Below are positions 9,481 to 22,208 of a stretch of 33,337 bases of DNA, in pieces. Positions within the stretch are counted from its first letter, which is position 1, and the number at the start of each line of letters is the position of its first letter. Below the pieces are notes generated by a model, which worked only from the letters and a program-made list of their open reading frames with translations, was not told the origin of the DNA and did no database searches. This DNA comes from Minisyncoccota bacterium (GTDB taxonomy: Bacteria > Patescibacteriota > Minisyncoccia > Phycocordibacterales > UBA9973). The stretch spans positions 1-33,337 of the forward strand of contig JAENWX010000004.1 of the NCBI GenBank assembly GCA_016649835.1. Direction: 5' to 3'. The translations under genes were made by a program, and so were the position numbers.

Positions 9481-9637
9481 TCCTTTAAAAGCAAGTTACG
9501 ATTAGAATTTTATAAAAAATCGATACCTACTAAATTAAATTATTAATCATATGACTAGCAAAACCTCTAACGAAATCCATGTATAATAGTATAACAACAA
9601 GTGCTAAACATAAGCAAATAAAATACGACTTATTACA

Positions 9638-9673
9638 CATAACGTTTTTAAACGACCGTTTAAAAACGTTATG
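9638..9673. repeat. Perfect hairpin beside the Cas2/PaaX-like gene
   Basis: CATAACGTTTTTAAACG-ac-CGTTTAAAAACGTTATG, 17-bp stem. Confidence 0.8.
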
Positions 9674-9684
9674 CGTATCTTTGT

Positions 9685-10170
9685 TTATTTTAAATTCTTA
9701 GAATCCATTACATCAAATATTTTAATAAACTTATCTATCCCCAAAAGAACAGCCCTTTTGTGGAATTCTTTCGGCATAGGCCCTGTTCCTAACCAAACAC
9801 TTTTTTGTATCATAGTAAAACCCCAGAGTTTAATTTGATTTCGAAGCCAATCTCGAAGCTTCCTGTCTTTTTCTGGAATATCAAAAATTAGTATAAACTT
9901 GTTAGTCTTTAAAGGATATTCATAAATTAGTTTATACTTTGAAAACTGTTTTGAATTTATATTTATTAACTGTACATTATTATCTTCAATTTTTATGACA
10001 CCTTTTTTCTTTAAACGATAAATATTTTGCCTAAATACATTTTTATTAATTTCTCTTCTATTTTTCATTCTTTCCCATAATATCTGATGTCTTAATCGCG
10101 TAGATCTTGCAGATAATAAAAAAGCTATTATTTCATCAGTAATTGAAGATTTTTCGTTTAAATTATTCAC
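9685..10170 (-). CDS. PaaX-like winged-helix plus Cas2-like C-terminal domain protein (solo, no CRISPR)
   Basis: N-terminal HTH-like region (DEIIAFLLSARSTRLRHQILWERMKNRREINKNVFRQNIYRLKKKGVI) and Cas2/PaaX-C motif FILIFDIPEKDRKLRDWLRNQIKLWGFTMIQKSVWLG. Confidence 0.7.
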   Translation of the reverse strand: MNNLNEKSSITDEIIAFLLSARSTRLRHQILWERMKNRREINKNVFRQNIYRLKKKGVIKIEDNNVQLININSKQFSKYKLIYEYPLKTNKFILIFDIPEKDRKLRDWLRNQIKLWGFTMIQKSVWLGTGPMPKEFHKRAVLLGIDKFIKIFDVMDSKNLK

Positions 10171-10278
10171 AAAATAATTGTAACACTTTCACACGGTCGT
10201 TACAAACCGTTATGGTGTATATTAATAATAAATATATTTTTAAAAAAATTATTGGAAAGAATTATTAGAAAAATTAGT

Positions 10279-21644: not shown

Positions 21645-21717
21645 ATATTTATATTCTACTATATAATCAATTTTTTCAAAAGCTCCAAGCTTAAGAGAAA
21701 ATTCAGGATAATACATC

Positions 21718-21751
21718 CATACACATATCAACCATGGCGTATATGTGTATG
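21718..21751. repeat. Hairpin flanking the Cas2-like ORF (left copy)
   Basis: CATACACATAT-caaccatggcgt-ATATGTGTATG; 29 nt identical to the right copy. Confidence 0.85.
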
Positions 21752-21774
21752 AATGAGTATTAAATAATACTGTA

Positions 21775-22149
21775 TTATTTTTGAATGGGGTAAGATTTTT
21801 CTAGTTTGAATGTCTTTAAATTATCTCCTATTTTTATCTCTTTTAAATAATTTAAAAAATCTTTTGGTAAGGGAGATGGTCCAACCCATACACTTTTTTG
21901 GATCATTATATATCCAAATTTTATAAGATGACGACGAAACCAGTCCCTCTCTTTTTTCATATCTGATGGAATGTCATACATAACGAGCAAATTTTTAGGC
22001 TGATTATTTTTAAATGGAGACCCAAAGGAAATATTATAATAACTTCTTTTTCTATTATTCTTAATTCGAGATTTTTTATTATCTCCAAGTAAAAAAGTTG
22101 GAATTCCCAAACTATTTACCTTTACCCCTTTATAATAATGAGTATTCAT
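21775..22149 (-). CDS. Cas2/PaaX-C-like protein (solo, no HTH)
   Basis: NLLVMYDIPSDMKKERDWFRRHLIKFGYIMIQKSVWVGPSPLPKDFL; homologous to the C-terminal part of ORF 9685-10170. Confidence 0.7.
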   Translation of the reverse strand: MNTHYYKGVKVNSLGIPTFLLGDNKKSRIKNNRKRSYYNISFGSPFKNNQPKNLLVMYDIPSDMKKERDWFRRHLIKFGYIMIQKSVWVGPSPLPKDFLNYLKEIKIGDNLKTFKLEKSYPIQK

Positions 22150-22168
22150 ATTTACAAGTATATATCCT

Positions 22169-22208
22169 TACATTACACATATCAACCATGGCGTATATGT
22201 GTAATGTA
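22169..22208. repeat. Hairpin flanking the Cas2-like ORF (right copy)
   Basis: TACATTACACATAT-caaccatggcgt-ATATGTGTAATGTA, 14-bp perfect stem, same loop as left copy. Confidence 0.85.

Follow-up and report, generated by a model that had tools for sequence, protein, structure and literature searches.

The open reading frame (ORF) at positions 21775 to 22149 of the analysed window and its relatives probably belong, together with the palindromes around them, to low-copy units that are mobile or have been dispersed. Such a unit would consist of a palindrome, a promoter -10 box, a Cas2-fold gene and a second palindrome, and from comparison of sequences we give a probability of roughly 55% to a REP/RAYT-like nature, with a Cas2/PaaX-fold protein replacing the Y1 HUH transposase. 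The window, the whole 33,337-nucleotide stretch of DNA, is contig C18 of the genome, whose assembly comprises 56 contigs and 735 kb.

The window loci, their protein and its relatives

The ORF, here called W21 (minus strand, like the other window features below), encodes a 124-aa protein of Cas2/PaaX_M fold, a short form in which most of the winged helix is missing, and is flanked on one side by a gene resembling that of DNA polymerase III delta' and on the other by frr. Its upstream palindrome (22169 to 22208; 14-bp arms, 12-nt loop) ends 19 nt from the start codon, and the A+T-rich spacer between them (22150 to 22168) is where relatives have a -10-like box. The downstream palindrome (21714 to 21755; 15-nt arms with one mismatch, 12-nt loop) is positioned just 3' of the stop codon. 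A 30-nt core, TACACATATCAACCATGGCGTATATGTGTA, is identical at 21720 to 21749 and 22174 to 22203, in direct orientation; the outer arms of the two hairpins have different sequences, yet are complementary except for one pair. The preliminary description had recognised this direct repeat but gave it as 29 nt, and of the stems that it listed as 11 and 14 bp the latter stands, as does the 12-nt loop, while the former is the 15-nt mismatched one.

Dinucleotide shuffles of the window contained no match like the 30-nt repeat, which together with the locus-wise matching of flanks (see below) rules out a chance origin. Folding on the coding strand was better than in shuffles for both palindromes (z -3.5 and -5.3). 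The 10-mer AATGAGTATT, pointed out earlier just inside both ends, is indeed found there but was rejected as a component of the unit, being coding and not conserved: the copy at 22137 to 22146 corresponds to codons 2-4 of W21 plus one base, and it is missing at the corresponding place in L029, the nearest paralogue in the same genome. This copy is treated as due to chance.

The Cas2/PaaX-like assignment of the ORF was upheld by profile searches. The only Pfam matches of W21 at E<=1 were PaaX_M (E 2.4e-13) and CRISPR_Cas2 (E 6.6e-7), both above the Pfam cut-offs, and both profiles match all 48 aligned members of the family. W21 also scored above the NCBIfam cas2 cut-off; the C-terminal PaaX domain gave no match, and the NCBIfam PaaX score was 18.8 bits against a cut-off of 264.55. 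For the AF2 model of W21 (pLDDT 77), the top Foldseek matches were Cas2 chains (best E 9e-3, TM about 0.4), many of them taken from Cas1-Cas2 complexes; PaaX and VapD ranked below Cas2 for this short-form model. The model of a form with a winged helix (wHTH) was weaker (pLDDT 67). A Y1_Tnp domain (PF01797) was not matched in W21 at E<=1 and the H-hydrophobic-H pattern of the HUH motif occurred in just 2 of 86 proteins, in line with the earlier claim that the encoded fold is unlike that of RAYTs.

Strong purifying selection acts on the protein (median dN/dS 0.10, 146 pairs). Asp59 is invariant across 48 relatives, and the DxP/DxS aspartate is present in 86 of 86 proteins, partly since the motif served to collect them. 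The conserved aspartate is uninformative on nuclease activity, as it is found in all members, likely repressors included; the Cas2 fold is found in repressors too, PaaX being one. A family-wide counterpart of the catalytic Tyr of Y1 transposases was not found either: Tyr101 is conserved in the short-form alignment, but is absent from W9 (see below) and from divergent bracketed paralogues.

Eleven PaaX_M/Cas2-like ORFs were found in the genome, a number that may span two organisms since the bin probably mixes two related ones, as judged from two rpsG loci that are about 86% identical (contigs C22 and C27). The 11 ORFs include W21 and a second window member, W9 (9685 to 10170), a 161-aa protein with winged helix and Cas2-like domain (PaaX_M 1.3e-12) encoded between mnmA and mgtC (by Pfam). 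W9 is followed by a palindrome with 20-bp arms (9634 to 9677; TACGCATAACGTTTTTAAACGGTCGTTTAAAAACGTTATGTGTA) and preceded by a degenerate quasi-palindrome (10182 to 10215; CATAACGGTTTGTAACGACCGTGTGAAAGTGTTA), which the automatic detectors did not pick up and whose likeness to the downstream one was judged by eye. The flanks of these ORFs have palindromes, mostly as clearly matched pairs, with a core that varies by subfamily (CTACGCTATAGCGTAG, CTCTGC..GCAGAG, ATATCAACCATGGCGTATAT, TACGATCGTA and ACGCTATCGCGT). Thus the bracketed ORF of the preliminary description is real, but the second window locus, the further ORFs of the genome and the family-wide bracketing had been overlooked.

Relatives of the protein, 113-208 aa in size, come mainly from metagenome-assembled genomes (MAGs) of Candidatus Nomurabacteria and other Paceibacteria. 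Of 155 relatives detected in the collection scan, 80 were retained, and the gene was present at E<=1e-25 in 16 of 197 genomes of the order. No relatives were detected in IMG/VR and PHROG gave no clear match, and a viral origin was set aside on these grounds. A unit 74% identical to W21 (L068, JAMPXW010000001.1) is from a MAG labelled Burkholderiales, a contig that is probably mislabelled or misbinned. Divergent Cas2-like paralogues of about 190 aa (L052, L053, L054, L289 and L298) lie between matched palindromes with cores of their own, and L297 has a palindrome on either side of a divergent Cas2-like ORF of the same approximate size.

Bracketing and palindrome-protein coupling across the family

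Comparison of the loci establishes that the bracketing is family-wide, with matched cores. The upstream flank of a locus matched its downstream flank (score >=14) in 77% of 82 loci, as compared with 10% for flanks from different loci and 0.5% for shuffled ones. When the threshold was set at the 95th percentile for random sequence drawn from these loci, a palindrome was present upstream in 69%, downstream in 67%, on both sides in 49% and on at least one side in 87%, and many of the remaining loci show degenerate palindromes by eye. These counts rest on the flank-alignment and core-based tests; stricter detectors under-counted because of large loops and imperfect arms. The median distance was 19 nt from the end of the upstream palindrome to the start codon and 8.5 nt from the stop to the downstream palindrome. 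Of 54 loci, 93% have a -10-like box in the interval that separates the upstream palindrome from the start codon; in shuffles the figure was 53%.

The arms covary. When palindromes were picked solely by their central 8 bases, pairs 11-18 of wHTH-form loci were complementary in 76-94% of cases versus 34-48% expected, with several pair types represented. Pairing in short-form loci is at background beyond pair 15, and in wHTH forms it continues to about pair 19. Template switching at quasi-palindromes can also maintain perfect arms, so covariation alone is no proof of selection for a hairpin.

The palindromes are also coupled to the protein. Stem length tracks protein form, being 14.5-15 bp with proteins of about 120 aa and 20-21 bp with wHTH proteins (p 3e-12, an optimistic value since the loci are related), and the similarity of the palindromes tracks protein identity (rho 0.51-0.60; 0 of 300 permutations).

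Scattered positions, empty sites and lone palindromes

Genome comparison likewise demonstrates scattered positions, empty sites and lone copies. For 80 loci the 148 neighbouring genes fell into 115 clusters, and both neighbours were common to another locus in only 7 of 68 cases. At least 11 congeners have an empty W21 site with both flanks aligned, although the alignment of the flanks stops about 100-300 bp short of the unit, the relatives being too diverged. In G012, the closest relative examined, the unit is missing from the sites of W21, W9, L025, L027 and L029 and present at that of L028, and the rpsG-fusA interval holds three different subfamilies across genomes and none in seven others. 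The preliminary description had suggested a candidate mobile unit, an idea that the same ORF and hairpins in all relatives, with no copies elsewhere, would have contradicted; what was found instead are empty sites, scatter and copies elsewhere, from which movement is suggested by comparison.

Palindromes without the gene are found as well. Four lie in the portion of G012 covered, at least five in the own genome, and others in more distant genomes; one lone copy in G012 has 36 nt identical to the downstream palindrome of that genome's unit. A palindrome in murB is in frame in several congeners and decayed in others; some members lack it, and their protein is shorter at this place. Lone cores are also seen within ORFs resembling recO, comEC and an aminotransferase gene, and chance may account for the one in the aminotransferase-like ORF. 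One core pattern, TACGCNATNGCGTA, is commoner in gene-positive genomes (8/16 versus 19/181, p 3e-4) and, as cores vary, is missing from half of them; in some gene-negative genomes the palindromes adjoin a divergent member of the same domain family of about 190 aa. Some lone palindromes lie between convergent genes, with A/T-flanked stems in several, and these may serve as terminators.

No two near-identical full copies of a unit were found within one genome, so recent transposition is not seen. A comparison with 24 congeners and with some 0.63 Mb from the closest relative gave no exact junctions, intergenic DNA being too diverged; neither target duplications nor a target-site consensus emerged. 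L126 and L130, in the dus-dnaX interval, were rejected as a clean insertion pair: the unit is common to two related genomes but the small ORFs around it differ, as in a variable island.

Two further observations concern individual loci. In the rpsG-fusA intervals of L171, L172, L174, L179 and L183, a second copy of the rpsG 3' end (like CATTTTGCTTGGTAA) follows about 150-200 bp onward, as if rpsG were an attachment site for small integrated elements. The ends of contigs C22 (L026) and C35 (L033) of the own genome fold back at the downstream palindrome of the unit, over a total of 60 and 142 nt; hairpin-ended molecules are possible, but these lengths suggest k-mer artefacts of the assembly, which they probably are, and the snap-back ends were set aside as evidence for such molecules.

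Operator, terminator, cargo or mobile end

The layout has a counterpart in the same genomes. In 21 of 24 congeners there are Y1_Tnp genes with a RAYT-like length of about 220-250 aa, and five of six inspected RAYT-type genes lie between matched palindromes, in the order palindrome, TA-rich box, gene and palindrome at or after the stop, the same as in the Cas2-like units. RAYTs are reported always to have two flanking REPs (PMC2817692), and E. coli TnpA_REP cleaves single-stranded REP in vitro (PMC8266576). The likeness to RAYT/REP organisation noted earlier is therefore borne out in anatomy, and the scattered positions, empty sites and lone palindromes fit it too. The cores bracketing the RAYT-type genes L301, L302, L303 and L305 (own genome) and L306 (G012) differ from gene to gene.

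A scan for palindromes 250-1400 bp apart with an exact shared core of 13 nt, covering 0.66 Mb (0.63 Mb of G012 and the window), returned one RAYT unit, two repeats of its palindrome family and one Cas2-like unit. As it returned only RAYT-type or Cas2-like material, generic hairpin-rich intergenic DNA is an unlikely source of such pairs. The scan is specific but not exhaustive, since it missed two known Cas2-like units, the second of G012 and W21.

From these comparisons we infer palindrome binding, autorepression and actual movement; the Cas2-like domain may cut or join DNA. The Cas2-fold protein would probably bind its own palindrome; perhaps its Cas2-like domain contacts the conserved centre, and the outer half-sites are contacted by the winged helix in those proteins that have one. 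Since the upstream copy overlaps the promoter, its occupation would repress the gene. With both ends occupied, the unit would be marked for mobilisation, and lone palindromes would represent its minimal, non-autonomous form. Self-repression is likely, as in PaaX (PMC9493321), given the upstream end beside the promoter, and an operator function is supported by a paralogue of about 180 aa found in several congeners (L055-L059). This has one palindrome-like promoter site (TTGACAAGTATTTAGTGACCACTAAATACTTGTATAAT in L055), placed between -35 and -10 in L055-L057, and no matching downstream palindrome, and looks like a resident autorepressor. The hairpins had been suggested as operators in the alternative; for the upstream one this probably holds, as it overlaps the promoter region, and being an operator is compatible with being a mobile end. 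Operator and mobilisation functions can coexist.

The main competitor, which we regard as unlikely, is that repression is all there is, the palindromes being operators of a dimeric winged-helix/Cas2-fold regulator of PaaX type. The upstream palindrome would repress its own promoter and the downstream one would loop or insulate, lone copies would be a regulon or relics, and scatter would reflect horizontal transfer and loss. The PaaX_M domain, the -10-like box adjoining the upstream palindrome and the single promoter palindrome of L055-L057 all favour this, as does E. coli PaaX, an autorepressor with the binding site TGATTC-N27-GAATCA (PMC9493321), and the strong purifying selection and the orthologous site L028 shared with G012 fit a resident regulator equally. 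However, it leaves unexplained the palindrome after the stop, the complementary yet divergent outer arms, the palindromes within coding genes and the identical RAYT layout, and short-form proteins keep their palindromes despite missing most of the winged helix.

It is improbable that the palindromes are bidirectional transcription terminators or insulators, tolerating or shielding a small gene. The downstream copy directly 3' of the stop and the lone copies between convergent genes would suit such a role, but terminators need neither a core common to both ends nor a coupling to protein sequence, the murB copy is in frame, and the upstream copy lies 5' of the promoter. Still less probable is that RAYT/Y1 transposases of the same genome move units and lone palindromes in trans, with the Cas2-like gene as cargo: Y1_Tnp genes are widespread and bracketed likewise, but the palindromes of each RAYT gene have a matching core of their own, different from those of the Cas2-like units, the Cas2-like palindromes track the Cas2-like protein, and G016 has units without a Y1_Tnp match. 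That the protein is a stand-alone Cas2/VapD-type nuclease or toxin of a CRISPR or toxin-antitoxin system is hardly credible, for although Cas2 and VapD structures are among the fold matches and the Cas2 profile matches, a simple exact-repeat test found no CRISPR-like repeats in the window, no Cas1 was noticed adjoining W21, whose immediate neighbours are housekeeping genes without a partner gene, and the palindrome coupling would be left unexplained.

We propose only tentatively, at somewhat short of even odds, that the Cas2-fold protein represents a new class of transposase-like enzyme, able to recognise the hairpins on either side of its gene and to disperse them. No known family tested combines this layout with this fold; if layout is weighed over protein, the unit is close to REP/RAYT and could count as a variant of it. 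In the literature searched, with few subscription journals, we found no published link of a Cas2/PaaX-fold protein to dispersing palindromes. If transposase-like, this family, related to the Cas2 subunit of the CRISPR integrase, would have evolved the REP/RAYT lifestyle convergently. As an active partner, the protein would represent one more family of enzymes acting on hairpin-ended mobile DNA, would be relevant to the origin of the partnership between Cas2 and an integrase, and would offer a simple test system of about 500 bp with one gene and two hairpins. Were it a repressor and nothing else, a family of such scattered genes, each with a matched palindrome pair, would still be unusual.

Among known systems, the REP/RAYT units (REPtrons; TnpA_REP, an IS200/IS605-related Y1 HUH enzyme; PMC2817692, PMC8266576) are alike in having a small gene with two cognate palindromes, covarying stems, lone palindromes elsewhere and a low gene copy number. 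The Cas2-like units differ in encoding a Cas2/PaaX-fold protein instead of a Y1 HUH one, in cores that, as far as seen, are missing the GTAG head, in two ends that may be direct or inverted, and in palindromes far below the more than 100 per genome usual for REPs. PaaX repressors share the winged helix, the Cas2-like domain (PF20803) and a palindrome beside the promoter; in contrast, the present family is without the C-terminal PaaX domain, its short forms are without most of the winged helix, and its loci are scattered with palindromes on both sides. CRISPR Cas2 and VapD share the ferredoxin-like fold and the DxP/DxS aspartate, whereas the present family has its own palindromes and neither CRISPR repeats nor Cas1 were noticed near the gene. 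Finally, the Rickettsia palindromic elements (PMC10969869) are also palindromic units in frame within coding genes, but they measure about 150 bp, as against palindromes of about 30-50 nt with a cognate bracketed gene in the Cas2-like family.
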